47,952 bases of DNA, from positions 1 to 47,952 of the forward strand of contig JAHDCP010000010.1 of NCBI GenBank assembly GCA_020629775.1, written 5' to 3'. A program made the translations under genes and the position numbers. Below the pieces are notes generated by a model. It was not told where the DNA came from, did no database searches, and saw only the letters and a list, made by a program, of their open reading frames with translations. This document shows, piece by piece, positions 15,421-34,913 of the stretch (the first letter of the stretch is position 1; each line of letters begins with the position of its first letter). The DNA comes from Planktomarina sp. Its GTDB lineage: Bacteria; Pseudomonadota; Alphaproteobacteria; Rhodobacterales; Rhodobacteraceae.

Positions 15421-16712
15421 CTGACTTTTTCCAAGATATTGCCCCGTTGACCTATGATCCCAACAGCACTGATTTGGCCTTTCGCCATTATAACCCAGAC
15501 GAGGTGTTCATGGGTAAGCGGATGGAAGACCATCTGAGGTTTGCAGTGGCCTATTGGCATTCGTTTGCGTGGCCCGGTGGGGATCCCTTCGGCGCCGAAA
15601 CTTTTGAGCGCCCTTGGTTTGGCAGCACCATGGATTTGGCGCGCATGAAAGCAGACGTTGCTTTTGAAATGTTCGATTTGTTGAACGTGCCTTTCTTTTG
15701 TTGGCACGATGCGGACATTCGGCCCGAAGGGGACAGCTTTGCGGAAAGCCTGCGGAATTTCGAAGAGATTATCGACTATTTCGCTGAAAAAATGGAAACG
15801 TCAAAAACCAAACTGCTTTGGGGCACGGCTAACTTGTTCAGCCACCGTCGGTTCATGTCTGGGGCGGCCACAAACCCTGATCCTGATTTGTTTGCCTGGT
15901 CTGCGGCCACAGTGAAAAACTGCATGGATGCGACGCATAAATTGGGGGGCGAAAACTATGTGCTGTGGGGGGGGCGCGAAGGATATGAAACCCTGCTGAA
16001 CACCGACCTTAAGCGCGAACGCCAGCAAGCTGGACGATTTTTACAAATGGCCGTGGAATACAAACACAAAATTGGTTTCAAAGGGGCCATCCTGGTGGAA
16101 CCCAAACCCCAAGAACCCTCCAAACATCAGTATGATTTTGATGTGGCCACAGTTTATGGGTTCCTCAAGGAATTTGGGCTTGAAAACGAAGTGCAGATGA
16201 ACATCGAACAGGGCCATGCCATCCTTGCGGGCCATTCTTTCGAGCATGAATTGGCGTTGGCGTCTTCTTTGGGGATCTTTGGATCCATCGATATGAACCG
16301 CAACGATTATCAATCTGGTTGGGACACTGACCAATTCCCCAACAACGTGCCTGAAGTCGCCCTGGCATATTACGAGGTCCTCAAGGCGGGGGGCTTTACC
16401 AAAGGGGGCACAAACTTCGACGCAAAATTGCGCCGTCAGTCTCTGGACCCGGTTGATTTGATCGCCGCCCATGCTGGTGGCATGGATGTCTGCGCGCGCG
16501 GTTTCAAAGCGGCTGCCGCCATGTTGGAAGACGGTACATTGGAAGCCATGCGCGCCGAACGGTACGCCGGGTGGGACAGCGCGGGCGGCAAAGCCTTGTT
16601 GAACAGTGATTTTGCCACCATCGCCGCGCAAGTGGAAACCAGCGGTATCGACCCGCAGCCCAAGTCTGGTCGCCAGGAAATCCTTGAAAACATCGTAAAT
16701 CGCTTTGTTTAA
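15417..16712 (+). CDS. xylA: Xylose isomerase
   Basis: A 431-residue class II xylose isomerase, converting D-xylose to D-xylulose. The His97/Asp100 pair in [12 protein letters not shown], the metal-ligand region [16 protein letters not shown], and the [18 protein letters not shown] and [17 protein letters not shown] stretches are all present. Length fits the 430-440 residues of this class. It sits between the LacI-type regulator, which it overlaps by four bases, and xylB. Confidence 0.96.
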
Positions 16713-16790
16713 GCGGTTGGCGGCATTCGCGGGCCTCAGCACAATCGGTGCTGGATGGCATAGATCAAGCTTTCAACAGGGAGGGACCGC

Positions 16791-18224
16791 ATGACATATT
16801 TGGGGTTGGACTTGGGGACCTCTGGGGTCAAAGCGCTTTTGATTGATGACGCGCAACGCGCCATTGCCGAAGGGCATGGCCCGTTGAGCGTTGAACGCCC
16901 CCATCCTATGTGGAGCGAGCAGGATCCGAACACTTGGATCACCGCTTGCGAAGCGGCGATTGATCAGGTGCGCGCGTCCGCCCCGGCCGAATTTGCCGCC
17001 CTGCGCGGCATTGCCGTTTCGGGACAAATGCATGGGGCCACGCTTTTGGATGCAGATGATGTGCCCTTGCGTCCTGCAATCTTGTGGAACGACGGTCGGT
17101 CCCATGCTGAATGCATCGAATTGGAAAACGCTGCGGATTTTCGCGGGATCGGTGGCAACATCGTCATGGCCGGATTCACCGCGCCGAAACTGCGTTGGGT
17201 TCAAAAGAACGAGCCAGAGGTTTTCGCCAAAACGAAAAAAGTTCTGCTGCCCAAGGATTTTGTCAATCTGTGGCTGACCGGGGAATATGTGTCTGAAATG
17301 TCGGACGCGGCTGGCACGTTGTGGTTGGATGTGGCCAAGCGTGATTGGTCCGATGCATTGTTGGCTGCCACAGGCCTGACGCGTGCACATATGCCGCGCT
17401 TGGTGGAAGGCAGTGAACATGCGGGGGATTTGCGCGCTGAATTGGCCGCCCGTTGGGGCGTGGGCCGTGTCAGCGTGGGCGGGGGTGCCGGGGACAACGC
17501 AGCCACAGCTTGTGGTTTGGGGGCCGTCCAGCCAGGGCAGGGCTTCTTGTCGCTGGGGACATCTGGCGTTTTGTTTTCTGTCACAGACCGATTTGCTGCA
17601 AATACAGACAGTGCTGTTCACAGCTTTTGCCACGCGGTGCCCCACACCTGGCATCAAATGGGGGTCATTTTGTGTGCCACTGACGCCATGGCCTGGTTGG
17701 GGCAAATCACCGGACGAACCCCCGCTGGGTTAACGGCCATGGTCAAGGACGTTCAAGCACCATCGCCCATTACGTTTTTACCTTATCTTTCGGGGGAACG
17801 TACTCCCCACAATGCGCCCAATGCGGCGGGCGCATTCCACGGTTTACGACGCGATCATGAATTGGCTGACATGGTGCAAGCCGTGATGGAAGGCGTGGGC
17901 TTTGCATTCGCAGATTGTTGCAAGGCATTACAAGATTGTGGATCCCTGCCACAATCCGTTTGCGTGGCGGGCGGGGGCAGTCAATCCAAGACTTGGTTGC
18001 AGATGATCGCCAACATCACGGGACTGTCTTTAGATGTGCCTGTCAGTGGTGCCCAGGGGGCAGCCCTTGGGGCGGCACGGTTGGCGATTTTAGCCAGTGG
18101 CGACGCGCCGCAAAACACGGTTTTGACGCCAGCAAAAATTGACAAGCAGTTCCAACCTAACCCGGCTTTGGCATCAGAATATGCGGACAGTCTGAATGCC
18201 TATCGCGCTGGATGGTCCGGGTGA
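16791..18224 (+). CDS. xylB: Xylulokinase
   Basis: A 477-residue FGGY-family kinase phosphorylating D-xylulose to xylulose 5-phosphate for the pentose phosphate pathway. The N-terminal ATPase motif GLDLGTSGVKALLID, the GQMHGATLLD segment, RPAILWNDGRS and the second-domain motifs LGTSGVLFS and CVAGGGSQSKTWLQ are present. A strong GGGAGGG site precedes the ATG. It ends the xyl operon; no xylFGH transporter follows, so xylose uptake is encoded elsewhere. Confidence 0.95.
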   Translation: MTYLGLDLGTSGVKALLIDDAQRAIAEGHGPLSVERPHPMWSEQDPNTWITACEAAIDQVRASAPAEFAALRGIAVSGQMHGATLLDADDVPLRPAILWNDGRSHAECIELENAADFRGIGGNIVMAGFTAPKLRWVQKNEPEVFAKTKKVLLPKDFVNLWLTGEYVSEMSDAAGTLWLDVAKRDWSDALLAATGLTRAHMPRLVEGSEHAGDLRAELAARWGVGRVSVGGGAGDNAATACGLGAVQPGQGFLSLGTSGVLFSVTDRFAANTDSAVHSFCHAVPHTWHQMGVILCATDAMAWLGQITGRTPAGLTAMVKDVQAPSPITFLPYLSGERTPHNAPNAAGAFHGLRRDHELADMVQAVMEGVGFAFADCCKALQDCGSLPQSVCVAGGGSQSKTWLQMIANITGLSLDVPVSGAQGAALGAARLAILASGDAPQNTVLTPAKIDKQFQPNPALASEYADSLNAYRAGWSG

Positions 18225-20117: not shown

Positions 20118-21014
20118 ATGGACGCGCAAAGCCTCAGACTATTTGTTTTAGCCGCTGAAACGCTGAACATCAGTGCCGCAGGGCGCATGTTGGGCATGGC
20201 CCCAGCTGTAGCCAGCACCCGAATTGCAAAGCTTGAAAAGCTTTTGGGGGCGGAATTGTTGCACCGCTCAACACGCAAGGTGTCTCTATCTTTTGAAGGC
20301 CAGGATTTTCTGCCTTATGCCAGGGAAATGATCGCACAAGAAGAAGCTGCGTTGGCGGCTTTGGGTAAGGGCAAAACCAATATCAACGGGACCCTGCGCT
20401 TTGCAGCCCCCAGCACTTTTGCGCAGTTGTATCTTTGCCCCTTGCTGCCCTTGTTTTTGGACGATTTCCCGGACCTTACGTTGGACTTGCAATTGTCTGA
20501 TGCCCAGCACGATTTGATCGAAGGAAGCTATGATTTGGCGCTGCGCAACACCATTTTGGATGACAGCAGTTTGATTGCCCGCAAGCTGGCGGACGATAAG
20601 CGCATCTTGTGTGCATCGCCAAAATATTTGAAGCAACACGGTGTGCCCACCCGACCAGAAGATTTGCAAACCCACCGTCTGATCGCGTTCCAAAATTGGG
20701 AGGCAAAGACCCTGATCCAAAATGATGGAACAAGAGCTGAGTATGATCCCAAACAGGCCGCACAGAGTTTGATTTTGAATGACGGCATGACCCAACGAAA
20801 CGCGACGTTGAATGGCGCAGGAATTTCGATCAATTCACTTTGGGTGGTTCACAATGATCTTAAAGCAGGGGCTTTGCATCAGGTGTTGCCAGATTTTGAA
20901 GTGGTACAAAAACCAGCACTTTGGCTCACATATCCCAAAAGCAACGTCGTGTCTGCGAAGGTGCGGGTGTTCATGGATTTCTTGATAAAACACCTTAGCG
21001 GCTTGCCAAACTGA
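20118..21014 (+). CDS. LysR family transcriptional regulator
   Basis: A 298-residue LysR-type regulator with an N-terminal winged helix (LRLFVLAAETLNISAAGRML, VASTRIAKLEKLLGAELLHR) and a C-terminal effector domain of the periplasmic-binding fold. It belongs by look to the CrgA/AaeR-like branch. It is divergent from the SDR gene and convergent with the reductive dehalogenase-like gene, 31 bases apart at their ends. Its most likely target is the SDR promoter; control of the dehalogenase promoter would have to act from 3 kb away. Confidence 0.9.
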   Translation: MDAQSLRLFVLAAETLNISAAGRMLGMAPAVASTRIAKLEKLLGAELLHRSTRKVSLSFEGQDFLPYAREMIAQEEAALAALGKGKTNINGTLRFAAPSTFAQLYLCPLLPLFLDDFPDLTLDLQLSDAQHDLIEGSYDLALRNTILDDSSLIARKLADDKRILCASPKYLKQHGVPTRPEDLQTHRLIAFQNWEAKTLIQNDGTRAEYDPKQAAQSLILNDGMTQRNATLNGAGISINSLWVVHNDLKAGALHQVLPDFEVVQKPALWLTYPKSNVVSAKVRVFMDFLIKHLSGLPN

Positions 21015-21045: not shown

Positions 21046-24000
21046 TCAAAGATCGATTTCGAGAACACCATTTTCATCTGCCGCACGGGATTGGCACAGG
21101 ATAATCTGGGTTTTGCGTTGAGCGTTGGACAAAACAAAATCGCGGTGTTCTACATCGCCTGCCACAAGGCCGCATTTGCATACCCCGCAAATCCCGTCGG
21201 AACATTTTAAGTCAACGGGAAATCCATGTTCAATCAAAACATCAGCAGCCGTTTTGTGGGCGGGGACTTCAAAGGTTTTGCCTGATTTGGCCAATTTCAA
21301 CGTGAACGGGTGGTTCACATAGTCGGGCTGTTCAGGAACAGAGAAATATTCAAGATGTCGGGCATCTTCTGGGAAGCCAGCTGTTTGGGCCGCCTCCATT
21401 ACCGATGTCATGTACCGGTCTGCGCCGCAGGTATAAACGTGCCAACCGGCTTGATATCCAGCCAAGGCTTTGTCCAAATCAATTCGGGTTCCTTCGGCAG
21501 TGATGTGCAAGTGCAGTTTATCGGCCCATGCAAAGTTGGGGATGTCTTCTAAGAACCCCATCGTGTCGCGGCTGCGGCCGGAATAGTGCACCTCAAAAGA
21601 CTTGCCTTGCGCGTGCAATTCATGGGCCATGGCCAGCATGGGGGTGATGCCAATCCCGCCGCCCATCAGGATGGAATGGGTGGCCCCAGGATCAAGGGGG
21701 AAGTGGTTTATGGGTTTGGAAACAAAGACCCGCCGCCCTTCGTCAAAGATGCGCTGCAACAATTTGGATCCGCCGCGCCCTTCTTCTTCGCGCAGCACGG
21801 CGATTTGGAAATGATCACGATTTGCAGGGTCGCCGGACAAAGAATACTGCCGCAGAAAATCTGGCGCGATCACGATGTCCAGATGCGCCCCGGCAGTCCA
21901 TAATGGCAGGGGTTTGCCGTCCACAGGTTTAAATTCATACTTTATCAAATCCGTGGCCATCGCTTCGGCCTTTGAGATTTCCACCTGCACAACAGGGCTG
22001 TCGCCATCCGCGGTGTATCGGTGCAAAAACGGGTCCAACGTGCCGTTTTCCGCGCGGCGTTGGTATTCTTCTGCCGTGATCATCGCCTGATACGCTTCAA
22101 TCCCGGCTTCACGGTCCATGGCAAACGGGTACGGATGGGGCGGCGGGGCCAAGGGGGCGGGGTACACTGCCAAGGTTTGATCTTCGTATTTAAGATCCAG
22201 ATCCTTTTGCAAAGACCGTGCGTTGACCGGTTTTTCGGTGGGGCGATAGCCGCCCTTTTCGGTGATTTCCAAATCCCACCACCACTTTTTCACCGGGTTC
22301 AAACCCCCATTGCCGGCATAATCATCCAACTTTGCCAGCATCGGCGCGGCCCCAGGCATGTTCATGGCCGCCCAACGAAATGGCTTTTCTGCGAACAATC
22401 CTTCCAGATTCCAAGGACACGTTTTCATACAGCGCCCACACATCGCCCCGCCTGGGGTCGTTACCCGGTACGTTGTGCATTTCTGGCTGTCAGATTTCCA
22501 AATTTCATAGCCGTTGAACATCAGCTTTGGTCCGGCTGTGATGGCCCCAGATGGGCATTCACGGGCGCATTTGTTGCAGCTTTCGCAAAACCGCTGAAGG
22601 CCAAAATCGATGGGTTTGTCATGGTCCATGGGAAGATCAGTGGTCACCACGCCAGATTTCAAACGCGGCCCCAAAAACGGGTTCAAAATAACCTCGCCGA
22701 TGCGGCTGACTTCGCCCATGCCGGACAACAGCAGCAAGGGCGGTTGCAGTACTTCACCGTCGATCACGGTGTGGGCCTTGGCCGAATACCCAAGGTTGCG
22801 AATTTGTTTGGCCATAACACCACCCAAAAGGGAAAACCGCAAATATGCCCGCATGGATTGGGCCACTGCGATCCAATCGTCCCCCGATGATCCTTCCATG
22901 GTTTCATACCCCTGATCAACAATCATGCTGATGGCCTGGTCATGGGGCGGGTCCAGCCGCTCGCCGCGTGCGTCGTGGCTGTACCACGCCCAATCGGGGC
23001 AGCGCGAAATGCCAACAGCATCAAGCCCTAGGAAATAGCTGGTGGCCTTGATCAGATCTGCGGCATTTTTGGGATCCAGCTTTGCCTTGGTGGGGGCCGG
23101 GGTGCCGTCTTGCAGCAAGACGAAGGCCCCAAGGGCACGGCGCTGTGCGGCAGACGGTGCTGCCTTTTTCACATAATGGCCCCCGCGCGCGCCGTCTTGC
23201 AATGGTTTGCCCATGTCGCCAAAGACCGCACGCGCGAACATATCTGCGCGCTTGGGCACCCGCGCGACATTGGGTTCATCGATGTAAGTTGTGGGTTTGT
23301 CGGTGCGTTTCAGCGTTTCAAATGGATGGGCCCCATCGACGAAACGCCGCTTGGCAAATGGCACTGCGTTCATGGCATTTTTGGCAAACCCGCGCCCCAG
23401 TTTCCACGCATGTCCAAAGGCGGATTTGGGTTGCTGGTCCAAGGGCACCAGAGGCAAATCTGTGGCCATTTCAAAGGTGGTGGTGATGGCCGAAAGCCCA
23501 AAACGCGTTCCGATATACGGATGAGTCAGCGCACCATTTTCCACCGTAGCAAGGCCTGCGGCCACAGCGACTCTGTTTAAATCAATGTCGGAACTTGTGG
23601 CGGTATGGGCCACGGCCTCGAACCCTAAAATGCGCAGATAGTTGGCCATAACGCAGGCGGTTTCCGCGGCCAAAAGCCCCGCGCGGTGGGCATAAGCCCC
23701 CTTCAACCAATCCGTGCCCGGTTCATCATGCAACGGCGCCCGGGGGTTTTCATAGGCAAAGACAATGGTGTGGGTGTGATGGTCCACCGCTGTGGGCGGG
23801 GCTTCGGCGGAATCCTTCAGATCCGCCATGATGATATCAATGCCCGCCGCAAAGCTTTTAGTCTGGCGGGTTTTAAGATCGTCCACCAGTTGGGTCACAT
23901 CCGGATTGTGAAATGGCCTGTCCAACAAGGCAGCTTGGGGCAGGGCGCAAATGCCTGTGGCAGCGGCATCGGAAAAGTAAGAAAACGCTTTGATGTGGTG

Positions 24001-24252
24001 GGCACGTTCCACAACGTCAGACGGGCATTCCGATTTTTCAACATTCACCAAACCACTGCGGATCACGTCCAACATGGCTTGGTGTTCGCGCATGGCATTG
24101 ATGATGGAATGGGGATTTTCGCCGTGATCAAAGGTCAGCTGAACTTGGGGGGGAATTGCCGCCAAATCTGGCATCATGTGCGTGCGGGCCAAAAGTTCGG
24201 AAGGATACTTGCCCATATGGACTGGGCGGTTCTTGTCTGAAAATAAGCGCAA
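21046..24252 (-). CDS. Self-sufficient reductive dehalogenase-like protein with reductase and ferredoxin domains
   Basis: A 1068-residue fusion. Residues about 1-720 resemble the corrinoid-dependent catabolic reductive dehalogenases (BhbA, NpRdhA), ending in two 4Fe-4S motifs: Cys556, 559, 562, 566 and Cys592, 605, 608, 612. Residues about 740-970 form a phthalate-dioxygenase-reductase-like module (RQYSLSGDP for FMN at 801-809; GGGIGITP for NAD at 864-871). The C-terminus is a plant-type 2Fe-2S domain (Cys1017, 1022, 1025, 1053). There is no Tat signal, so it should be cytoplasmic. Such enzymes remove halogen from halogenated phenolic acids with NADPH. It starts with TTG 24252 behind GGGGAGA; the next Met, residue 13, lacks such a site. 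It lies downstream of the urease operon and has no aromatic-degradation genes beside it. Confidence 0.85.
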   Translation of the reverse strand: MRLFSDKNRPVHMGKYPSELLARTHMMPDLAAIPPQVQLTFDHGENPHSIINAMREHQAMLDVIRSGLVNVEKSECPSDVVERAHHIKAFSYFSDAAATGICALPQAALLDRPFHNPDVTQLVDDLKTRQTKSFAAGIDIIMADLKDSAEAPPTAVDHHTHTIVFAYENPRAPLHDEPGTDWLKGAYAHRAGLLAAETACVMANYLRILGFEAVAHTATSSDIDLNRVAVAAGLATVENGALTHPYIGTRFGLSAITTTFEMATDLPLVPLDQQPKSAFGHAWKLGRGFAKNAMNAVPFAKRRFVDGAHPFETLKRTDKPTTYIDEPNVARVPKRADMFARAVFGDMGKPLQDGARGGHYVKKAAPSAAQRRALGAFVLLQDGTPAPTKAKLDPKNAADLIKATSYFLGLDAVGISRCPDWAWYSHDARGERLDPPHDQAISMIVDQGYETMEGSSGDDWIAVAQSMRAYLRFSLLGGVMAKQIRNLGYSAKAHTVIDGEVLQPPLLLLSGMGEVSRIGEVILNPFLGPRLKSGVVTTDLPMDHDKPIDFGLQRFCESCNKCARECPSGAITAGPKLMFNGYEIWKSDSQKCTTYRVTTPGGAMCGRCMKTCPWNLEGLFAEKPFRWAAMNMPGAAPMLAKLDDYAGNGGLNPVKKWWWDLEITEKGGYRPTEKPVNARSLQKDLDLKYEDQTLAVYPAPLAPPPHPYPFAMDREAGIEAYQAMITAEEYQRRAENGTLDPFLHRYTADGDSPVVQVEISKAEAMATDLIKYEFKPVDGKPLPLWTAGAHLDIVIAPDFLRQYSLSGDPANRDHFQIAVLREEEGRGGSKLLQRIFDEGRRVFVSKPINHFPLDPGATHSILMGGGIGITPMLAMAHELHAQGKSFEVHYSGRSRDTMGFLEDIPNFAWADKLHLHITAEGTRIDLDKALAGYQAGWHVYTCGADRYMTSVMEAAQTAGFPEDARHLEYFSVPEQPDYVNHPFTLKLAKSGKTFEVPAHKTAADVLIEHGFPVDLKCSDGICGVCKCGLVAGDVEHRDFVLSNAQRKTQIILCQSRAADENGVLEIDL

Positions 24253-24357
24253 GTTTGTATCTCCCCAGGATGATCACAACGGCGATCACGGCACAAGGTT
24301 AGCGCGGGTTAACATGTTGCTCAACGCATTAAAGGGAGGGGCTTCGCGCGGCGGATA

Positions 24358-24987
24358 TTACGCCCGTACCGGCTTTTCAAACCCGCCGATTTTGGCCAAC
24401 AATACAATCACGTCATCAGTCCCGTGGCCCTGGCGCAAACTTGTGAACACAAAGGGTTTGGCCCCTCGCATGCGGCGCGCATCCCGGTCCATGACGTCCA
24501 GTGATGCCCCAACATGAGGGGCCAGATCGGTTTTGTTGATGATCAGAATATCGGACTTGGTGATGGCGGGGCCGCCTTTTCGGGGGATTTCTTCGCCTGC
24601 GGCCACATCAATCACATAAACCGTCACGTCGGCCAGTTCAGGGCTAAACGTGGCGGACAAATTGTCCCCGCCACTTTCGATCAACACAATCTCCAGGTCG
24701 GTATGCCGTTCACGCAGCTGTGCCACTGCCGCCAGATTGATAGAGGCGTCTTCACGGATGGCCGTGTGGGGGCAGCCCCCCGTTTCCACCCCGATCACCC
24801 GGTCTTGGGGCAAGATTTGCAAGCGCATCAAAGCTTCTGCGTCTTCTTGGGTGTAAATGTCATTGGTGATCACCCCTATGGACACCGCAGGGTGCAGGGC
24901 GCGCGCAAGGGCCGCCGTTAAAGTGGTTTTACCAGCGCCCACTGGGCCGCCGATTCCGATCCGCAAAGGTCCATTGGGGGAAGGCAT
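24358..24987 (-). CDS. ureG: Urease accessory GTPase UreG
   Basis: A 209-residue SIMIBI GTPase that drives nickel delivery to apo-urease with UreD, UreF and UreE. The P-loop [13 protein letters not shown] is near the N-terminus; the nickel-binding CPH motif is in [26 protein letters not shown] follows, and the guanine motif NKTD lies in [16 protein letters not shown] 24987 has AGGAG eight bases upstream, while the longer frame to 25074 adds residues not found in UreG. It is the last gene of the urease operon, four bases after ureF. Confidence 0.95.
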
Positions 24988-24991
24988 AAAT

Positions 24992-25621
24992 CTAACTCCT
25001 AAAAACGCGGGAATAGAGCGTTTCATGCTGTTGTGCTGCAATGTCTGACATCCAGGCGCTGCTGTGCAAATCATCCAGTGTTGCGCCCTTTAACTGGACT
25101 GCTGTTTCGGCGCACAACGGCTTCAATTGGGTTTGAATGAACTGTCCTTGGACCTGGCCCAAGGGAACCAAACGCATTGCCGCCGCCGTCAAATTCCCCA
25201 CAAAGGCTTGCAGGTACATGGCGGTGGTCAGTTCCGCATCCAAATCCAACAGGGCTGCGGTGCGCCCCACAGCAACGGGATAACACAGCCGCCCCAGATC
25301 AAAGCCCCATACTGCCTGCACGGTGTCGCAAAAAGCGGCCCCCTGCAGATCGGTTTCCATCAGTCTTTCGGCAGAAGCGGCAAAGGCACGGGCCGTGGCG
25401 TCTATGCTTGGATCGTCGCTGTAAAAGGCGGCATTCAACAGAACCGCATCGGCGTGCGCGCTGCCATGCGTTAACAGGCTGTGCAGCCAATCGTTTACCT
25501 GCTGGGCCGTGGCCAGTTGACCGCTGTCGATGGCTGTTTCCAACCCGTGGGAATACGCGAAGGCCCCCACGGGAAAACTGGGGGACAGCAATTGTGAAAG
25601 GGTCAAAATGTCAGTGGTCAT
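24992..25621 (-). CDS. ureF: Urease accessory protein UreF
   Basis: A 209-residue all-helical chaperone that bridges UreD and UreG in the urease activation complex. The N-terminal [18 protein letters not shown] is the family hallmark, and [15 protein letters not shown] and [14 protein letters not shown] continue the match. I start at 25621, inside the end of ureE (11-base overlap), because the upstream in-frame start would extend further into ureE without support. Fits the ureE-ureF-ureG order. Confidence 0.93.
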
Positions 25622-26078
25622 GGGCTGTGTGACCGTGTTCGTGGGCATGGGTGCGACCGTGCCCGTAAGCTCCGCCTTCCGGGCTAAAAGGTTCGAACAC
25701 CTCTGTCACATTGGCACCCAAATGTTCCAACATGTGCCCGATCACTTTGTCACGCTGGATCAATAGGCGGCTTTCTGTGATTTGACACGGGGTGTGGCGA
25801 TTGCCGATGTGCCATGCAAGCTGGATCAAATTGCCTTGCACGGCATAGAGCTCCTCAGATGCTGCGATGATTTCGATCAATCGCCCATCGGTCAGCACAA
25901 AGGCATCGCGGTTGTTGACGGATGTGGTCTGCGCAAGATCCACCAGCAGCGCATCATCATCCGCGGTTTTGACAACCTTGCGGCGCAAAAACCGCTCGTC
26001 ATAGGTCATGACACACCGATCAAAACTGCCGGACCAGGTGCCTGCGCGGGCCACTTTACGGGCGATGTAATCCGTCAT
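25611..26078 (-). CDS. ureE: Urease accessory protein UreE, nickel chaperone
   Basis: A 155-residue metallochaperone with an N-terminal peptide-binding domain and a C-terminal metal-binding domain; the HIGNRHTPCQI region is the conserved metal site, and the tail is rich in His ([16 protein letters not shown]), as in nickel-storing UreE proteins. It brings Ni to the UreG complex. The ATG overlaps the ureC stop by one base (TGATG), so translation is coupled. Confidence 0.95.
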   Translation of the reverse strand: MTDYIARKVARAGTWSGSFDRCVMTYDERFLRRKVVKTADDDALLVDLAQTTSVNNRDAFVLTDGRLIEIIAASEELYAVQGNLIQLAWHIGNRHTPCQITESRLLIQRDKVIGHMLEHLGANVTEVFEPFSPEGGAYGHGRTHAHEHGHTAHDH

Positions 26079-27808
26079 CAGAACAAGAAATACCTTTGGG
26101 CAATGGGCAATTCGGTGGCGGGCTCGCAGGTTAACAACTCCCCATCTGCGCGCACCTCATAGGTTTCGGGGTTCACCTCCATTTTTGGTGTGGCGGTGTT
26201 GTGGATCAGATCTGATTTCCCGATGGCGCGTGTGTTTTCAACGGCAACCGTTTGTTTGGCCAGCCCCAACTTTTCCCCAATGCCATCGGCCTGTGCCGCC
26301 GCAGAGACGAAACACACGGCAGAGTGTCCCACAGATCGACCGTATGCCCCAAACATGGGTCGCGTATAAACAGGCTGCGGCGTTGGGATGGATGCATTGG
26401 GATCCCCCATCTGCGCGCATACGATGGTGCCCGCCATCAAAACCATTTCGGGCTTCACGCCGAAAAACGCCGGGTCCCACAAAACAAGATCGGCCCGTTT
26501 GCCTTCTGCGATGCTGCCTATTTCGTGGCTGATCCCGTGGGCAATGCTTGGGTTGATGGTGTATTTGGCGATGTAGCGGCGCACACGAAAATTGTCATTG
26601 TCGCCGGTTTCTTCGGGCAAGCGGCCGCGCTGTTTTTTCATTTTGTCAGCGGTTTGCCAGGTTCGGATCAGCACTTCACCCACGCGTCCCATGGCCTGGC
26701 TGTCAGACGCGATGATGGAGAAAGCCCCCATGTCATGCAAAATATCTTCTGCGGCGATAGTTTCACGGCGGATGCGGCTTTCGGCGAAGGCCACGTCTTC
26801 TGGAATGGATTTGTCCAGGTGGTGGCACACCATCAACATGTCAAAATGTTCTTCCAGGGTGTTCACAGTAAAAGGCCGCGTGGGATTGGTGGAGGAGGGG
26901 AGAACATGGTTTTCCCCACAGATCTTGATGATGTCGGGCGCATGGCCGCCCCCGGCCCCTTCGGTGTGAAACGCGTGGATGGTGCGGCCCTTCATGGCGG
27001 CAACGGTGGTTTCCACAAAGCCTGATTCATTCAACGTGTCTGTGTGGATCATCACCTGCACGTCCATGTCATCGGCCACCGACAAACAGCAATCGATGGC
27101 CGCTGGGGTGGTGCCCCAGTCTTCGTGCAGCTTCAGCGCGCATGCGCCGCCTTTGACCATTTCCACCAAGGCATCAGGCTGGCTTGCATTGCCCTTGCCT
27201 GCAAAGGCCAGGTTCATGGGAAACGCATCGGCGGCTTGCAACATGCGGCCAAGGTGCCAGGGTCCAGGCGTGCAAGTAGTGGCCAAGGTGCCATGCGCCG
27301 GACCGGTGCCACCCCCCAACATTGTGGTTAAACCAGAATGCAGTGCATCTTCGATTTGCTGGGGACAGATGAAGTGGATGTGGCTGTCAAAGCCGCCGGC
27401 CGTCAAAATGCGTCCTTCCCCGGCGATGACTTCTGTGCCCGGGCCGACAATGATGTTCACGCCTGGTTGGGTGTCAGGGTTGCCGGCTTTGCCGATTTTG
27501 TGGATCCGCCCATCGCGCAGACCCACGTCAGCTTTGAAAATTCCAGAATGATCCACAATCAACGCATTGGTGATAACCGTGTCCACAGCCCCAGCGGCGC
27601 GGGTGAATTGGGATTGGCCCATGCCATCACGGATCACTTTTCCACCGCCGAATTTTACTTCTTCGCCATACGACAGGCCATTGCCGCGTTCTGCGGTCAG
27701 ATCTCGTTCCACTTCGATGAAAAGATCGGTGTCTGCCAGGCGCACCTTGTCGCCAACGGTGGGGCCAAACATGGCAGCATAATCGGCGCGACTGATGGTG
27801 GTGGCCAT
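26078..27808 (-). CDS. ureC: Urease alpha subunit
   Basis: The 576-residue catalytic subunit hydrolysing urea to ammonia and carbamate. All nickel-site residues are visible: His143 and His145 (DSHIHFICP), the carbamylated Lys226 (ALKLHEDWG), His255 (MIHTDTLNE), His281 ([13 protein letters not shown]) and Asp369 ([13 protein letters not shown]). The active-site flap has Cys328-His329 (MVCHHLDK). It overlaps ureB by three bases and ureE by one. Nothing suggests loss of function. Confidence 0.98.
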
Positions 27809-28113
27809 TACAAATCCCCCATGACTTGGGCGTTAAACCCAAAAATGCGCCTGTGCCCCGCGATTTCGATTAAATTTACCTCGCGGCGTTGGCCGGGTTC
27901 AAACCGGATGGCGGTGCCGGGGGCGATATCCAATCGGCGACCGCGCGCCGCCTGGCGGTCAAAGTCCAGCGCGCCGTTGCATTCGGCAAAGTGATAATGG
28001 CTGCCAACTTGCACCGGGCGGTCCCCGGTGTTGGCCGCCACCAGCGTGATTGCGTTGCAGTCTTCGTTCAGAACCAAGGCGCCTGCGGCGGGAAAAATTT
28101 GTCCAGGAATCAT
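27808..28113 (-). CDS. ureB: Urease beta subunit
   Basis: A 101-residue urease beta subunit with the usual opening MIPGQIFPA, the [18 protein letters not shown] core and the [16 protein letters not shown] segment. It forms the (alpha-beta-gamma)3 enzyme with UreA and UreC. The separate beta and gamma genes match the bacterial three-subunit type. It lies nine bases after ureA and overlaps ureC by three bases. Confidence 0.97.
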
Positions 28114-28122
28114 GGGCGTCTC

Positions 28123-28425
28123 CTATCGGATGGGTCTGTGGACGGTGACAAGTTTGGTTCCATCGGGGAACGTGGCTTCCACTTGGACCTCGTGGATCAT
28201 CTCCGGCACGCCAACCATGCATTGGTCTTGGGTCACCACATGGGCACCGGCTTCCACCATATCCGCCACGGATCGTCCGTCGCGGGCGCCTTCGACCACT
28301 GCATCCGTGATCAAGGCAATGGCTTCTGGGTGGTTGAGTTTAACCCCACGGGCCAGCCGCTTGCGGGCCACTTCGGCTGCCATGGCCACCAACAGTTTGT
28401 CTTTTTCACGGGGGGTGAGTTGCAT
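28123..28425 (-). CDS. ureA: Urease gamma subunit
   Basis: A 100-residue urease gamma subunit: [34 protein letters not shown] and the ending [20 protein letters not shown] are all typical. It starts three bases after the ureD stop and is followed closely by ureB, so the structural genes are in one transcript. Confidence 0.97.
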
Positions 28426-28428
28426 GGA

Positions 28429-29262
28429 TTATAGTCTCCAGTTTTTGGGAACAGCGGCGTCTGTCAAAAGGTGTAAGATTTTGAAAACGGATTTGCGCAG
28501 AGCCAAGCTGTCAGGGGCCAACACGCGCACCACCAGAACCGTGTCTGACAGCAAACTGGTCCCGGCGGTGGGGGGCAACAGGGGCCGGACAAGGTCAAGC
28601 CAAGGCTTTGCCAAGGGATCCACAAATACAATACTGGCCATGGCACGCGCCCCGTCGGCCACGGCTTTTTGGTTCAACTGTTCGGCGATTTTCCCGCCCA
28701 TTTTGATGCGATCAAAGTATAAGGGTGTGCTGTCACGGGTAATAGTCACCCGATCATCCAAAGCCCCGGACATCAGCCTTTCGCCCGAGGCACAGCGCCC
28801 AAACACCAAGGCTTCCACCATCAAGAATGTCGCAGATGCGTGCAATTCAACATCAAGGCGGCGTTTAAGCCGGGCCCCATCAAACAAAATCGTTTCTTGG
28901 GGCAACCAGAAAAGGGCCGCGCCGTCTTGGGCGCTAAGCGATGTGGTGACAGTGCCGTGTTGCACACCAGCGGCACGGTAAATCCGTTCAGCCGCTTGGG
29001 TCGTAACGCTGACCCGTGTTTTTGCCTGCGCCACGATATGGGTGGAAAATTGATCCCCGCCTGTGATGCCGCCCGCAGTGTTCACCAAAACCGTTTCAAG
29101 TTGGTCGCCCGCGGGGCGTGGGAAGATCGCCCGTAAGGAGCCTTGGTGCCGCAGGGTCTGCAATAAAGACGCCCCGTCAGGGCGGTGTTTTGCGTACACA
29201 GACACCAAGCCCTTGGCCCGTTGCAATTCGGGTTGTTGGGGGATGGTGCTTTGTACGTTCAT
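28429..29262 (-). CDS. ureD: Urease accessory protein UreD
   Basis: A 277-residue accessory protein that, with UreF and UreG, forms the nickel-insertion complex on apo-urease. NTAGGITGGDQFS, TTQAAERIYR and WLPQETILFDGARLKRR are clear UreD motifs. I use ATG 29262 (MNVQSTIPQQP); a longer frame to 29319 adds a poor leader. It is the first gene of the ureDABCEFG operon. No urea transporter or regulator gene is beside it, so nitrogen control (probably by NtrC) cannot be read here. Confidence 0.93.
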   Translation of the reverse strand: MNVQSTIPQQPELQRAKGLVSVYAKHRPDGASLLQTLRHQGSLRAIFPRPAGDQLETVLVNTAGGITGGDQFSTHIVAQAKTRVSVTTQAAERIYRAAGVQHGTVTTSLSAQDGAALFWLPQETILFDGARLKRRLDVELHASATFLMVEALVFGRCASGERLMSGALDDRVTITRDSTPLYFDRIKMGGKIAEQLNQKAVADGARAMASIVFVDPLAKPWLDLVRPLLPPTAGTSLLSDTVLVVRVLAPDSLALRKSVFKILHLLTDAAVPKNWRL

Positions 29263-29746
29263 GCGGGGCGTCCACCTGGTTTCCCCACCAGAGGTGACGG
29301 CGTTTCGCGATGCGCACAAACTTTGGAACGCGATCTGTTTTGAAATTTCGGTTTTTTCTTAAGTCGCTGAAATTTTAGGCGCTTGCGATCATTCTATGGG
29401 CGGTTTTTGGATGTTGTAATACCGGGTGAGCACGCGATTTCGTTAGGGCTTGGGCACGACGTGAGTGAAGATATCGCCTCTGCGCTCTTATTTGGGATCC
29501 TAAATGGTGTCAAAACAAAGAAAGAAAACCTTTTCGCGAAAAAATGGTTGATTTGGGATCCATCAACGGTCCTACTTACTATGACGACGCGCAAGATTCC
29601 GAACGCGCTTGCCGGATCGGCTGCTTTATCACTGTTGGGGTGAAGATTTAGGGCCGATTTTCGGGGGCAAATTTGTTTCTGCGCTGATGGCGTAAAAGCC
29701 CAGATGCGCGTGTGTTGGGCGAAAGTAGGAATTTGGGTTCGAAATC
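29263..29746. other. Divergent intergenic region between ureD and the sulfatase gene
   Basis: A 484-bp gap that must hold the promoters of the urease operon (minus) and of the sulfatase-TAXI operon (plus). A frame of 86 codons (29383-29643, plus) has no recognisable domain and no good ribosome binding site, so I do not call it a gene. The region is AT-richer than its neighbours and I found no convincing regulator site in it. Confidence 0.5.
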
Positions 29747-31372
29747 ATGGCTGAACGCAAAAACATTTTGTTCATCATGTGCGATCAACTTCGCTATGAC
29801 TATTTGTCGTGCGCGGGGCACAAAACGTTACAAACCCCAAATATTGATGCGCTTGCCGCGCGGGGGGTGCGGTTTTCCAACACATACGTGCAGTCCCCCA
29901 TTTGTGGCCCCAGCCGGATGAGCACTTATACCGGGCGGTATATGTCTTCGCACGGTTCTACGGCTAACTTTTCACCGCTGCGCGTGGGGGAGTTGAACAT
30001 TGGTGATTACCTAAAACCCCTGGGCATGCGCCCCGTGTTGGTGGGGAAAACCCACGTGATCCCGGATATGGAAGGGCTGACACGATTGGGGATCGATCCA
30101 TCCAGCCCATTGGGGCAGCACTTGGGGCAGGGCGGCTTTGAGCCGTTTGAACGTGATGACGGCATCCACCCAGATGCCATGGTAAAGCCCAATATTGCCT
30201 ACAATAAGTATTTGAAAGACCGTGGTTTTGATGACCACAAAAATCCTTGGCATTGGGCGGCCAATTCCGTGATGCGCGACGGCGAAGTGCGGTCAGGATT
30301 TTTCAACGATGTTGCGGATCTTCCGGCACGGGTCACGGATGAAGAGTCCGAAACCCCCTATATGACCCGCCGTGCGATGGAGTTTTTGAGCCAAGATGAC
30401 GGCGAAACACCTTGGCTTTTGCATCTCAGCTATATCAAACCCCATTGGCCCTATATCGCGCCTGCCCCTTACAATGATATGTACGGCCCATCCGATGTGC
30501 AGCCCGTCCACTGTGACGAAAGCGAGCGCGCAGATGTTAATCCTTTGATGAAACTGTTCCAAGACCGGATCAGTGGCAAAACCTTCTCTCGCGAGGAGGC
30601 ACGTAAGAAAATTATTCCGGCTTACATGGGCCTGATCAAACAGATCGATGATCAATTGGGCGAACTGTTCGCCTTCATGGATGAACGCGGTTTGACCGAT
30701 AACACGATGATCGTGTTCACATCAGATCATGGGGATTATCTTGGCGATCATTGGATGGGGGACAAGGATTTTTTCCATGATGAATCTGTCAAGGTCCCGT
30801 TGATTATCGCGGATCCGCATTCGGATTGTGATGCCACGCGCGGCACGGTCAATGACAAACCCATCGAAGCGATCGATTTACTCCCCACCTTCATTGAGTA
30901 CGCCGGTGGCAAAATACCTGATCACATTTTGGAAGGGCGGTCCTTGATGCCCTTGTTGCAAGGGCAGGACGTCAGTTGGCGGGATTATGTCATCAGTGAA
31001 TATGACTATTTTATGCAGACCTTCAGCCCCAAAACCAAGCGCCCCCCGATTGACTGTCGCATGTACATGATTGCCAACGACAAATGGAAATACATCCACG
31101 CGCCTGGGTTTGCCCCGGTGTTGTTCGATTTGAAAAACGACCCGGACGAATTTCACGATCTGGGGACCGCGCCCGAACACGAAGATATCCGCAAAACCAT
31201 GCATTACGCCCTGGCTGATTGGGCTTTGCAGTATCGACAACGCCAAACGGTGTCCGAACAACTGGCCAATGAACGCGTGGGCCTGGAGGACAAATTGGGC
31301 GTGTTGATTGGATATTGGGATGAAGACGACGTGAAACCGCCTGCGCAAGCCCCAAGCTTTGCGCAAGATTGA
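29747..31372 (+). CDS. Sulfatase/phosphonate monoester hydrolase family protein
   Basis: A 541-residue alkaline phosphatase-superfamily hydrolase. The sulfatase signature CGPSR at 53-57 (SPICGPSRMSTYTGRY) puts Cys53 where formylglycine is made. Metal and active-site residues are visible: Asp13 (MCDQLRYD), Lys101 and His103 (GKTHV), Lys231 and His233 (IKPHWPY), Asp327 and His328 (FTSDHGDYLGDH) and Lys340. No signal peptide is seen, so it should act in the cytoplasm. Relatives include aryl- and alkylsulfatases and phosphonate/phosphodiester hydrolases; I cannot tell which. The TAXI TRAP genes follow 58 bases later in the same direction, suggesting that its substrate is imported by them. Confidence 0.85.
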   Translation: MAERKNILFIMCDQLRYDYLSCAGHKTLQTPNIDALAARGVRFSNTYVQSPICGPSRMSTYTGRYMSSHGSTANFSPLRVGELNIGDYLKPLGMRPVLVGKTHVIPDMEGLTRLGIDPSSPLGQHLGQGGFEPFERDDGIHPDAMVKPNIAYNKYLKDRGFDDHKNPWHWAANSVMRDGEVRSGFFNDVADLPARVTDEESETPYMTRRAMEFLSQDDGETPWLLHLSYIKPHWPYIAPAPYNDMYGPSDVQPVHCDESERADVNPLMKLFQDRISGKTFSREEARKKIIPAYMGLIKQIDDQLGELFAFMDERGLTDNTMIVFTSDHGDYLGDHWMGDKDFFHDESVKVPLIIADPHSDCDATRGTVNDKPIEAIDLLPTFIEYAGGKIPDHILEGRSLMPLLQGQDVSWRDYVISEYDYFMQTFSPKTKRPPIDCRMYMIANDKWKYIHAPGFAPVLFDLKNDPDEFHDLGTAPEHEDIRKTMHYALADWALQYRQRQTVSEQLANERVGLEDKLGVLIGYWDEDDVKPPAQAPSFAQD

Positions 31373-31384
31373 AAACTATAAAAA

Positions 31385-31399
31385 CCGCGAAAAACGCGG
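31385..31399 (+). other. Small hairpin between the sulfatase and TAXI genes
   Basis: CCGCG-AAAAA-CGCGG forms a short GC stem just after the sulfatase stop codon and 32 bases before the next start. No T-tract follows. It may be an intercistronic hairpin that adjusts the relative expression of the binding protein. Confidence 0.35.
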
Positions 31400-31430
31400 G
31401 CAAACAGCCATGATCAACTGGGAGAAAACA

Positions 31431-32465
31431 ATGATCAAAACACTTATCGGGGCTGGCTTGGCCCTTGGCTTGATGACAGCTTCCGCCTCCGCGCAAGCCA
31501 TCTTGACCGCAGAAACGGGCCCTGCGGGCACCGTGCCTTTTACCGCCACCACAGCGCTGGCTGAACTTGCATCGGCCGAAGGGCTGGCAACCATGCAAGT
31601 GGCCGATGGGCAAACCCTGACGAATTCACTGCAAAACGTCGCGGAAGGCAAAACAGATGTTTCCGCCGCACCGTTGATTTTGACGTTCTTGATGTCACGT
31701 GGGGCGGGTCCTTACGCGAAATTGGGGCCTGAAAAGGGCAGCGAATTGATCGCCAATGTGCAAGTCCTGCACACCTTCAACTATGGCGGCTTTGGTCTGT
31801 ATGCTTATAACAGCTCAAGCGTCAAAGGCTGGGGTGATCTGGAAGGCAAAACCATCTTGAACGGCCCCCCCCGAGGTGCTGCCCTAACCAATGACCGCCA
31901 AATTCTGCAACTGGTCAGCGGCATCGAAGACGGCAAAGATTACAAGGGCTTGCAAGTGAACTGGGGGCAAATGCCCAAAACCATCAGTGATGGGTCTGCG
32001 GATGCCATGATGCTGCCGGTTACTTTTCCCGACAACCGTATCACCCGGTCCATGGCCGCCGGTGACATGACTTTGTGGTCCATCCCAAAAGACATTTGGG
32101 AAGGGGCCGCCATGCAAAAATACATCAAAAGCCCAGGCACCGCTGGTATCGTGTTCGATCTGAATGACGTGGCCCCAGTGGAAGGTCTGACCATCGTCAG
32201 CGAAGATGGCATCTGGCGCAGCCCGACGACCGTTGGCGCGGAAGTGGTGCAAGCCAGCATGGACTTTGAAACCGCCAAAGCGTTGACCGCTGTTATCTTA
32301 GCTAACGTAGACACGGTGTTGGCCAAAGCGCCATACATGGCCACCACCAAAATTGGCAGTGTTGGCTTTGGCCTGTGCGGTGCGGTTCCCGTGAAATACC
32401 ATCCTGGTGCCGTGGCAGCATATGAAGAAGCAGGGATGACCGTTCCCGATTGCGCCAAGCCATAA
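31431..32465 (+). CDS. TAXI family TRAP transporter solute-binding protein
   Basis: A 344-residue periplasmic protein with a signal peptide (MIKTLIGAGLALGLMTASAS, cleavage near AQA). The TAXI-type binding fold is suggested by the N-terminal ETGPAGTVPFTATTALAELA stretch, the LRG-like GDLEGKTILNGPPRGAALTN segment and the companion fused permease. I start at 31431 because GGGAG lies six bases upstream. A single gene product carries ligand for the permease at 32544. The ligand is unknown; the sulfatase upstream hints at an organic ester. Confidence 0.85.
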   Translation: MIKTLIGAGLALGLMTASASAQAILTAETGPAGTVPFTATTALAELASAEGLATMQVADGQTLTNSLQNVAEGKTDVSAAPLILTFLMSRGAGPYAKLGPEKGSELIANVQVLHTFNYGGFGLYAYNSSSVKGWGDLEGKTILNGPPRGAALTNDRQILQLVSGIEDGKDYKGLQVNWGQMPKTISDGSADAMMLPVTFPDNRITRSMAAGDMTLWSIPKDIWEGAAMQKYIKSPGTAGIVFDLNDVAPVEGLTIVSEDGIWRSPTTVGAEVVQASMDFETAKALTAVILANVDTVLAKAPYMATTKIGSVGFGLCGAVPVKYHPGAVAAYEEAGMTVPDCAKP

Positions 32466-32543
32466 GGCCGTATTCGGTCCATTAAAATAATGAAGGGGCT
32501 GCGGTATTTGCCGTGGCCCCATTCTCACAATGGGGTGGATGAG

Positions 32544-34913
32544 ATGTCGAATGCCGAAATGAACGAAGGTGGGTCCAAGTCCATCGCCAGCCAAATTGTA
32601 TTTTGGCTGTCTGTCTTTTTCGTCGTCCTGGGAATGATAAATGCTATGCCGGGCATTCCTGGGCTGGATCAATTGGCCGCCCAAATTGCCGGGAATGAGA
32701 ATTTCATCATTCGAAAATTCCCCTTCGAATATTACTATCCCTTTGCGTTTGCTGTGATGATGATCATCGTGGCGCTGCATCATTCCATGTGGCGGGCCTG
32801 GCGTGACAAAAGTGCGGTGCGACGGGGCTTTGGCTTGGCCATGGATGTCGCTTTGATCGTCATGGCTTTGACCATTTCGATCACGTATCTGGCGGAAATC
32901 GAAGCCGTTTGTATCATCGACCAAATCACCGGGGACCGCGCGCGGTTGCTGGCGGAAAGTCTGCGGATTGAAAAAGAAAACGCTGATCTGTTTGGCTTGC
33001 CGGAACCCACCACGGTGGATGATCCGCAATGCCTGAACACCACGGGGCCGTGGCTTGTGCTGATCATCGGATTGGCGATTGTTGTTTTCCTCAGTTACAA
33101 TGTCAAAGTTTGGGGCTTGCCGCTGGTTTTGGTGGCCATTTTGGTGGCGGCTTACACCATGGCAACTGTGTTGGTTTGGTACTTCTATGGCACTGAAGAC
33201 ATCAGCAAATACCTGGTGACCAAAATCGGCGGGGAACCAAGGATGCTGTCGGACGGGCGATCCAGGGTCCACGATATCTTGGTGAACAACGCATCGGGCC
33301 TGTTGGGGCGTTTCATGGATATTATCCTGAACGAGATCTTTCCTTATCTTATCCTTGGGGCCTTGTTTGGGGCGTCGGCGGGGGGGCAATCCCTGATCAA
33401 GGTGGCGTTTCGTTGGACGCGCAAATTGGCGGGCGGGCCTGCCCATGCTGCAATCGTCTCGTCCGCGATGTTCGGAACCATTTCTGGCGGGCCGATTGTG
33501 AACGTGCTGTCCACGGGTGTTTTGACCATCCCCATGATGATAAAGCGCGGCTTTTCTAAAGTCTTTGCGGGCGGCATGGAAGCTGCGGCATCATCGGGCG
33601 GGTCCATCATGCCGCCGGTCATGGGGGTTGCGGCCTTTATTTTGGCGGCCTTAACTGGGGTTCCATACAACAAGGTAATCATTGCCGCCGCCCTGCCGGC
33701 CTTGGCCTATTTCATCTGCCTGTTTCTTTCGGTGGTGTTCCAAGCGCGTAAACAAAAGATTGCGGCCATGGGGGAATTGACCCCCGATATGCACATGGAT
33801 CGCCAGGACATTTTGAACCTGATGGTGATTTTTGTTCCGATCTTGATCATCCTATTTTTGCTGCTGACCAGTAAGGAAAATATCGGCTGCGGTCTGTTTG
33901 GCGGGATACTTGGGGCGGAACGGATCTTTACAGATGCCGGGCAGTGCCGCGTGCAAAGTCTGCCCTGGGGCCTGAAGCTGGTGCAAAATGCCGCTGGTGA
34001 TGCGGGCAGTGCTGGCTGGTGGGCGGTGATTGCGCTGTGTTTCTTGATCTTTTTGGATCCTGAAATGCGTGCAAAACCGTCCAAGCTTTTGACTTCAGTG
34101 TCCAATGCCGGGGTGTTGATCGCGACGCTGTATCTGATGTTCCTGGCGGTTTCGATCATCGACTTTTGTTTAAAATTCACCGGCATGCCGTTCTTCATTT
34201 CATTGGATGTGTTGCAGTGGTTGCAAAGCTTGAACTTGGGCGGGGAAGGGTCCTTCTTGTTCCAATTTGTCGCATTGGTGGTGACCATGTTGTTGGCCGT
34301 TTTGCTGGGCATGGGGATGCCAGCGGTGCCTGCCTATATCAACGTGGCCTTGTTGATGGGGCCTGTCCTGGCGGGGCTGGGAATCTCCATCTTTGCCGCG
34401 AATATGTTCATCTTCTATTTTGCCGTGGCCTCGGCCATCACGCCGCCAGTGGCGCTGGCGGCCTTTGCAGCAGCGTCCATCACCAAAGCGGAACCCATGG
34501 CCACCGGGTTTGCCGCTGTGCGGGTTGGTATCGTGATGTTCGTGATCCCGTTTGTTTTTGCGCTCTATCCGGAAATTTTGTTGATTGAAGCCGCCTTCAT
34601 CGATCCCACAACCAGCAGTGGAAGCAACGTGCAATACTTGCCTGGTTACACCGGAGACGTGGCCTGGGGTGCGTTGGCTTGGCTTATGGCGCGGCTTTTA
34701 TTGGCGCTGTATCTTTTGGCCAGCGCCCTGGCGGCATTCGATCGGATGACATTGCCATTTTGGGATGTGGCAGTGCGGCTTGGGCTTGCGGCTTTGATCA
34801 TGTTCAAAGCCCCCACGCTGTATGGCCCTGCCGTTGTGGTGGCGGTGATCTGGTTGGTTCTCCACTTTGTGCGCAGCAGATCTGCCGCCAATGATGACAC
34901 GGCAGCCGCATAA
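32544..34913 (+). CDS. Fused TRAP transporter permease (DctQM type)
   Basis: A 789-residue membrane protein joining a DctQ-like N-terminal part (about four helices, then a soluble loop of about 60 residues) with a DctM-like part of a dozen helices, the normal form for TAXI systems. Signatures include SSAMFGTISGGPIVNVLSTG, AAASSGGSIMPPVMGVAAF, GMGMPAVPAYINVALLMGP and AVASAITPPVALAAFAAASI. I place the start at ATG 32544, behind GGGGTGG, rather than ATG 32490. It follows the TAXI gene by 78 bases and works with it as a Na+- or H+-driven importer. Confidence 0.9.
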   Translation: MSNAEMNEGGSKSIASQIVFWLSVFFVVLGMINAMPGIPGLDQLAAQIAGNENFIIRKFPFEYYYPFAFAVMMIIVALHHSMWRAWRDKSAVRRGFGLAMDVALIVMALTISITYLAEIEAVCIIDQITGDRARLLAESLRIEKENADLFGLPEPTTVDDPQCLNTTGPWLVLIIGLAIVVFLSYNVKVWGLPLVLVAILVAAYTMATVLVWYFYGTEDISKYLVTKIGGEPRMLSDGRSRVHDILVNNASGLLGRFMDIILNEIFPYLILGALFGASAGGQSLIKVAFRWTRKLAGGPAHAAIVSSAMFGTISGGPIVNVLSTGVLTIPMMIKRGFSKVFAGGMEAAASSGGSIMPPVMGVAAFILAALTGVPYNKVIIAAALPALAYFICLFLSVVFQARKQKIAAMGELTPDMHMDRQDILNLMVIFVPILIILFLLLTSKENIGCGLFGGILGAERIFTDAGQCRVQSLPWGLKLVQNAAGDAGSAGWWAVIALCFLIFLDPEMRAKPSKLLTSVSNAGVLIATLYLMFLAVSIIDFCLKFTGMPFFISLDVLQWLQSLNLGGEGSFLFQFVALVVTMLLAVLLGMGMPAVPAYINVALLMGPVLAGLGISIFAANMFIFYFAVASAITPPVALAAFAAASITKAEPMATGFAAVRVGIVMFVIPFVFALYPEILLIEAAFIDPTTSSGSNVQYLPGYTGDVAWGALAWLMARLLLALYLLASALAAFDRMTLPFWDVAVRLGLAALIMFKAPTLYGPAVVVAVIWLVLHFVRSRSAANDDTAAA

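Follow-up and report, generated by a model that had tools for sequence, protein, structure and literature searches.

A probable self-sufficient reductive dehalogenase fusion in a Planktomarina genome and a hint of its cooperation with arylsulfatases

We analysed a fused gene in a stretch of 47,952 nucleotides from Planktomarina sp. (contig JAHDCP010000010.1; the whole stretch is called the window here), which joins a reductive dehalogenase part (RdhA) to a module of the phthalate dioxygenase reductase (PDR) type. The rdhA-PDR fusion is a genuine, intact and probably functional self-sufficient catabolic reductive dehalogenase, ordinary within its group. This class of self-sufficient RdhA is already known (JtRdhA, 2023) and common, and the fusion adds another member to it; what is new here is the hint that the fused RdhA works alongside sulfatases on the same sort of algal compound. 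The gene and its parts, in positions of the window, are as follows.

21046..24252, minus strand: rdhA-PDR fusion gene, a single intact chain of 1068 amino acids with a TTG start
24261..24266, minus strand: GGGGAG, the likely ribosome-binding site, 8 bases ahead of the TTG
23053..24252, minus strand: N-terminal part, about residues 1-400, by alignment the counterpart of the corrinoid-like half of NpRdhA (boundary approximate)
23815..23940, minus strand: insert of 42 residues (105-146) that by alignment has no counterpart in NpRdhA
22318..22941, minus strand: catalytic corrinoid/Fe-S core, residues 438-645, from TIGR02486 and the alignments to NpRdhA and BhbA
22417..22587, minus strand: two 4Fe-4S sites, Cys556, 559, 562 and 566, and Cys592, 605, 608 and 612
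21058..21993, minus strand: PDR-type module, residues 754-1065, matching 2PIA, 6KBH, 6LAA and 7YLR
21094..21204, minus strand: 2Fe-2S cysteines 1017, 1022, 1025 and 1053, from Pfam and alignment

The layout is carried by profiles and alignments. The NCBIfam model TIGR02486 'reductive dehalogenase' gives 192.1 bits for the 1068-residue chain (cut-off 160.35), and Pfam places a 4Fe-4S domain at residues 556-615 and a 2Fe-2S domain at 988-1057, both over their cut-offs. With phmmer, the fusion matches NpRdhA (4RAS) at E=8.1e-151 and, over residues 754-1065, phthalate dioxygenase reductase (2PIA) at E=1.3e-56, a portion that also aligns to the reductase portions of self-sufficient cytochromes P450. 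The NpRdhA alignment covers residues 1-105 and 158-729, i.e. both halves of the duplicated corrinoid RdhA, of which the N-terminal corrinoid-like one is termed 'vestigial' in NpRdhA (PMC10463259). Given these E-values together with conservation along the whole chain, chance similarity can be excluded; besides, none of the 30 top-ranking rows from the search of the family, window row included, has an internal stop, and at the position of the TTG start a related locus (L085, strain HIMB11) reads ATG. An earlier sequence-only reading had described one chain with a corrinoid-type RdhA, two 4Fe-4S motifs, a reductase and a 2Fe-2S domain, which TIGR02486, Pfam and phmmer all bear out.

The catalytic residues are likewise in place. 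In NpRdhA, the hydroxyl group of the substrate is bound by Lys488, Arg552 and Ser422, and Tyr426 donates the proton (PMC7565698). Alignment assigns Tyr426, Lys488, Arg552 and Ser422 to Tyr470, Lys532, Arg596 and Ser466 of the fusion, and these four are identical in 94 of the 94 rows compared, duplicates among them; this census passes over 15 of the 29 family loci, in which the gene runs along the minus strand of the locus. The eight 4Fe-4S cysteines are also cysteines in both BhbA and NpRdhA. The sequence-only reading was thus right to expect the catalytic residues in an alignment to NpRdhA; the two it had named, Tyr424 and Lys492, exist but are not the catalytic equivalents. Equivalents of NpRdhA Lys307, Phe310 and Pro311 were dropped, as two alignments conflict in that gapped stretch.

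Among characterised enzymes, JtRdhA (WP_104007082) from Jhaorihella thermophila, a self-sufficient catabolic RdhA studied enzymologically, resembles the fusion in its published domain order, its marine host and an insert without NpRdhA counterpart, a comparison made from the published description (PMC10463259); the same source reports Y426/K488/R552 (NpRdhA numbering) as kept, as in the fusion. With NADPH as electron donor, JtRdhA removes bromine and iodine from ortho-halophenols both aerobically and anaerobically; chlorinated analogues only inhibit it, and its rate with 3-bromo-4-hydroxyphenylacetate is 99.3% of that with its best substrate (PMC10463259). A specific insert of their own is described for JtRdhA-type fusions (PMC10463259), and residues 105-146 may correspond to it. 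BhbA (Comamonas sp. 7D-2, plasmid pBHB, WP_015585978) shows 49.7% full-length identity and the same layout, and keeps the catalytic residues as well as all eight 4Fe-4S and four 2Fe-2S cysteines. It differs in its neighbours on a conjugative plasmid (ligA and genes for an extradiol dioxygenase subunit, a tripartite tricarboxylate transporter binding protein and a porin) and in having Ser at the second-halogen position where the fusion has Val. The RdhA part of NpRdhA (PDB 4RAS, 6ZXU, 6ZXX, 6ZY0, 6ZY1) is 44.0% or 41.2% identical, depending on which of two alignments is used, and shares the catalytic residues, but NpRdhA lacks the 42-residue insert and a fused reductase (PMC10463259 for the latter). 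Therefore, the earlier claim of a layout like BhbA and NpRdhA stands for the former and fails for the latter, and an unfused catabolic RdhA of the NpRdhA type is ruled out for the fusion by its reductase domain.

A further candidate, Ros_A3X954 from Roseobacter sp. MED193, is a debrominating RdhA of a marine roseobacter (PMC13101508). Both of its published Fe-S motifs are found in a short unfused MED193 protein (L113, open reading frame 808-2361), 29% identical to our fusion over 308 residues, and are absent from the separate RdhA fusion of MED193 (L089), which is 69% identical to that of the window. Ros_A3X954 is therefore not a direct precedent, and we rejected it as the closest characterised relative.

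The enzyme is far from rare. Scanning of genomes gave 571 encoded relatives at E <= 1e-3, some of which may not be fusions, and an RdhA-type protein occurs in 113 of 295 sampled genomes of the window's family, i.e. about two fifths, a few of them partial; together with the characterised JtRdhA, these numbers overturn the earlier description of the class as 'few known'. From the family count we removed rows matching the reductase alone, as well as broken or partial rows in G193 (a second copy), G160, G096 and G212, the last three being scored as without rdhA. Neighbouring pieces within G269, and likewise within G099, were joined by coordinates only. We retained a partial protein in G102, the RdhA part alone in G033 (43% identity) and, in G139, an additional copy that is partial. 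When 115 rows, all 29 family loci included, are placed in a quick tree, the fusion pairs with Marinovum algicola (support 100), and rhizobial and Granulosicoccaceae rows are interleaved among Rhodobacterales. A genome of the same genus (G045; locus L128, 6660-9860) carries an RdhA that is just 63% identical to the window's and lies deep in the tree, which suggests a separate acquisition. Taken as a whole the pattern suggests horizontal movement of rdhA, with long branches flagged at that deep join.

We consider it very likely that the fusion is a cytosolic self-sufficient catabolic reductive dehalogenase that works by the following mechanism, in which the activity, the route of the electrons, the preference for bromine, the tolerance of oxygen and the precise substrate are all predicted. 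Electrons would pass from NAD(P)H via flavin to the C-terminal 2Fe-2S cluster, on to the two 4Fe-4S clusters and finally to the corrinoid cobalt, which would strip the bromine (or iodine) off a phenol that is halogenated in the ortho position and bound by Lys532, Arg596 and Ser466, with Tyr470 supplying the proton. The dehalogenated phenol, e.g. 4-hydroxybenzoate, would then serve as a carbon source via PobA and the protocatechuate 4,5-cleavage operon. The TIGR02486 core is also common to respiratory reductive dehalogenases, so that a role as terminal reductase has to be weighed. Against it speaks the NAD(P)H-reductase module that the fusion carries; in addition, the N-terminus is, by alignment, in register with NpRdhA residue 1 and therefore leaves no room for a twin-arginine translocation leader, and a membrane-anchor subunit was not found among the 20 neighbouring open reading frames scanned. 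A respiratory function is consequently scarcely credible.

Several observations weigh against parts of the catabolic mechanism. The pocket for a second halogen (a second bromine), Ala419 in NpRdhA, is Val463 in the fusion and in 94 of 94 rows, and Ser in BhbA and in the enzyme of Nitratireductor sp. OM-1. The AlphaFold model, built with 22 relatives, has a mean predicted local distance difference test score (pLDDT) of 61 and falls below 50 across most of the Fe-S region; in a Foldseek search with this model, NpRdhA chains come out on top, followed by PDR-type proteins, which supports the fold assignment, not the active-site geometry. Since Ros_A3X954 is highly oxygen-sensitive and loses activity upon exposure to oxygen (PMC13101508), oxygen tolerance of the fusion cannot be assumed. 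Finally, the pobA and lig genes of the genome lie on other contigs, away from rdhA, and 4-hydroxybenzoate need not be the product, because pobA does not predict rdhA among the family genomes (P 0.78 in the model below).

Nevertheless, the genome holds a downstream route. On contig C14, pobA (691.9 bits) is accompanied by the plasmid genes for RepA and RepC, so that use of 4-hydroxybenzoate may be plasmid-borne; on the same contig (L124, 4739-11550), pobA and a sulfatase of the type of the arylsulfatases SpAS1 and SpAS2 are divergent and 94 bases apart. A protocatechuate 4,5-cleavage cluster on contig C82 encodes LigB, LigA, LigK and a 4-oxalomesaconate tautomerase, each over its NCBIfam cut-off, Gfo/Idh-type dehydrogenase, DUF1932-like and PIG-L-type proteins, named by position and resemblance to Nitratireductor OM-1, and an amidohydrolase assigned only through a match below cut-off. 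These cleavage genes are adjoined (L127, 4576-7969) by genes for an alkyl-sulfatase-fold hydrolase, 51% identical to that of HIMB11, and a DctP transporter protein. For an intradiol dioxygenase, the PF00775 profile had no match in the genome. The homogentisate gene hmgA is on contig C29. In Nitratireductor sp. OM-1, pobA and lig-type genes are a few kb away from a fusion that is 50% identical to ours. Our corrinoid survey, which covered the CobN family, found a CobN-family gene on contig C11 and a further match on C124, the latter possibly a magnesium-chelatase relative. Taken together, the evidence favours bromophenolic acids that feed the 4-hydroxybenzoate/protocatechuate or homogentisate routes as substrate, and the earlier proposal of a brominated phenol appears to have been right.

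Besides the fusion, the following neighbours in the window bear on its context.

20118..21014, plus strand: LysR-family regulator, convergent neighbour, with no NCBIfam cut-off reached among the matches listed
24358..29319, minus strand: complete urease cluster ureG-F-E-C-B-A-D, upstream of rdhA, a neighbour and not part of the system
29747..31372, plus strand: SpAS-type arylsulfatase with the CGPSR nucleophile motif and GKTH (Lys101/His103)
31359..32465, plus strand: TAXI-type solute-binding protein of a tripartite ATP-independent periplasmic (TRAP) transporter, TIGR02122 at 53.1 bits (below the cut-off of 84.35), Pfam NMT1_3 over cut-off
32490..34913, plus strand: fused TRAP permease, TIGR02123 at 313.8 bits (just below the cut-off of 320.65), Pfam DctM over cut-off

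Farther off, at 14311-18224, genes for a LacI-type regulator, a protein weakly matching xylose isomerase and an FGGY carbohydrate kinase stand in a row, probably a sugar-use cluster unrelated to rdhA.

For the neighbours of rdhA in general, we kept the loci of the best 80 of the 571 relatives, many of which end at contig edges; neighbour clusters were built with a simple longest-frame caller that may prefer antisense frames and left rdhA itself uncalled in 2 of the 80. For physical linkage within the family, we counted genomes with both genes listed and the pair <=10 kb apart, leaving out the window genome. The counts use the matches listed: 150 rows for the sulfatase (in 121 of 137 genomes), 150 for pobA (of 191 genomes over cut-off), 150 plus the window's own for ureC (of 230 genomes) and 150 for hmgA (of 199 genomes). 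Expected numbers assume random placement in a uniform genome of 3.9 Mb, and ten gene pairs were compared, uncorrected.

The position of rdhA only 105 bases behind ureG on one strand could suggest that it belongs functionally to the urease operon by read-through. Window ureC, ureE, ureF and ureG, however, are unmatched in the 80 rdhA loci, as far as the simple caller and contig-cut loci allow, and none of the 60 other genomes in which both are listed has ureC near rdhA (0.36 expected). The adjacency is therefore best read as coincidence and a functional tie to urease as very improbable; the earlier statement that the gene stands beside a urease operon is correct, but it is adjacency without linkage. 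The remaining claims about the surroundings need similar adjustment: the neighbours examined include no aromatic-degradation gene, as stated, but the genome carries pobA, hmgA and the protocatechuate 4,5-cleavage operon on other contigs, and 'no dedicated transporter' was too strong in view of the sulfatase and TAXI-TRAP genes at 29747-34913, which may or may not serve RdhA. This set lies 5.5 kb from rdhA, beyond the urease genes and on the opposite strand, and a functional tie of the window sulfatase to rdhA may be drawn from other genomes.

The closest solved structure is SpAS1 (4UPI, E 9.7e-200) for the window sulfatase and SpAS2 (4UPL, E 1.1e-228) for that on C14, and both SpAS1 and SpAS2 are arylsulfatases (PMC5870055, PMC5488252), a Lys/His pair distinguishing arylsulfatases from phosphonate hydrolases (PMC5488252). 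With CGPSR at 53 and GKTH at 100-103, the window protein matches the formylglycine type and the Lys/His pair by motif alone, and GKTH is present in 9 of 9 sulfatases checked. An operon-like sulfatase upstream of rdhA was found in three of nine loci examined, the other six, including the window, being not clearly so. In L066 the sulfatase ends 10 bases ahead of the rdhA frame and in L129 170 bases ahead; in L085 (HIMB11), which has the clearest gene order, one strand carries, in this order, sulfatase, alkyl-sulfatase-fold hydrolase, TRAP permease, TAXI binding protein, short-chain dehydrogenase/reductase and rdhA. In six genomes of the family sample, the SpAS-type sulfatase and the alkyl-sulfatase-fold hydrolase are 9-63 bases apart (0.06 pairs expected <=3 kb), apparently a conserved pair.

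The linkage test places a sulfatase near rdhA in 6 of the 74 other genomes in which both are listed, with 0.60 expected (Poisson P 4e-5), and pobA in 4 of 67 (0.42 expected). The sulfatase is also found near pobA (3/80, 0.58 expected) and hmgA (4/74, 0.53), and near ureC once (1/58, 0.38); it may therefore serve phenol sulfates in general. The pairs without rdhA or the sulfatase gave none (pobA-hmgA 0/91, pobA-ureC 0/87, hmgA-ureC 0/86). At <=3 kb, rdhA pairs with the sulfatase in 3 cases, with pobA in 3, hmgA in 1 and ureC in 0; at <=50 kb the numbers are 10, 6, 1 and 0. Over whole genomes, the sulfatase is over-represented with rdhA (84 of 113 rdhA genomes vs 53 of 182 others; pobA 90 vs 109, with presence set at a best E < 1e-120, and ureC 94 vs 136). 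In a logistic model for rdhA presence with genome size and the four genes, which used the same pobA threshold, the odds ratios are 5.3 for the sulfatase (likelihood-ratio P 3e-9), 3.3 for hmgA (P 9e-4), 1.1 for pobA (P 0.78) and 1.4 for ureC (P 0.31). Such co-occurrence is weaker evidence than physical linkage, because genera are not independent.

The hmgA result raises the possibility of a substrate that stems from the breakdown of halogenated tyrosine (e.g. 3-bromo- or 3-iodo-4-hydroxyphenylacetate) and enters the homogentisate route. The genome itself carries hmgA, as do 99 of the 113 rdhA genomes against 100 of the 182 others, hmgA picked out by eye, without a family search, lies <=10 kb from rdhA in 5 of the 80 loci, and the near-maximal rate of JtRdhA with the brominated compound fits as well. 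On the other hand, the two genes are neighbours in just 1 of 71 family genomes listing both (0.45 expected), and we regard this substrate as rather doubtful.

The sulfatase linkage leads to another candidate, a sulfated bromophenol that would be imported by the TRAP transporter, desulfated by the SpAS-type enzyme and debrominated by RdhA, which would refine the best explanation, i.e. the self-sufficient catabolic dehalogenase. Sulfated bromophenols occur in red algae, lanosol-4,7-disulfate being a major secondary metabolite of Vertebrata lanosa (PMC9322897), which makes a desulfate-then-debrominate route testable. The linkage and co-occurrence numbers, the operon-like order at L066, L129 and L085 and the arylsulfatase nature of SpAS1 and SpAS2 all speak for it. 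However, 68 of the 74 genomes have no listed sulfatase at a distance of <=10 kb from rdhA, just 4 of the 80 rdhA loci (the best 80 of 571 relatives) hold an SpAS-type one, and the alkyl-sulfatase-fold hydrolase is near rdhA in a single sampled genome. In the window, rdhA and the sulfatase operon lie on opposite strands, with the urease cluster between them. In addition, the sulfatase was picked as a query after it had been sighted in rdhA loci, among them L085, which is in the sample as G176 (HIMB11, 100% match), so that five genomes are left without it, and in related genera a shared lineage or a marine lifestyle can also yield co-occurrence. We thus put this substrate forward tentatively. 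In the literature searched, with subscription papers mostly outside it, we found no report of a desulfate-then-debrominate route or of a tie between SpAS enzymes and a dehalogenase.

For marine Rhodobacterales, it is conceivable, if on balance unlikely, that the fused RdhA acts as the second step after TRAP uptake and desulfation, followed by NADPH-dependent debromination and ring cleavage; desulfation of red-algal bromophenols may then be performed by the SpAS-type enzyme and in some genomes also by the alkyl-sulfatase-fold hydrolase. If true, this would identify a class of natural substrates for a widespread enzyme and assign a physiological function to the SpAS-type sulfatases. The wider value of the finding is ecological, as this class of enzyme is present in about two fifths of the sampled family genomes and its linkage to arylsulfatases points to sulfated algal bromophenols.

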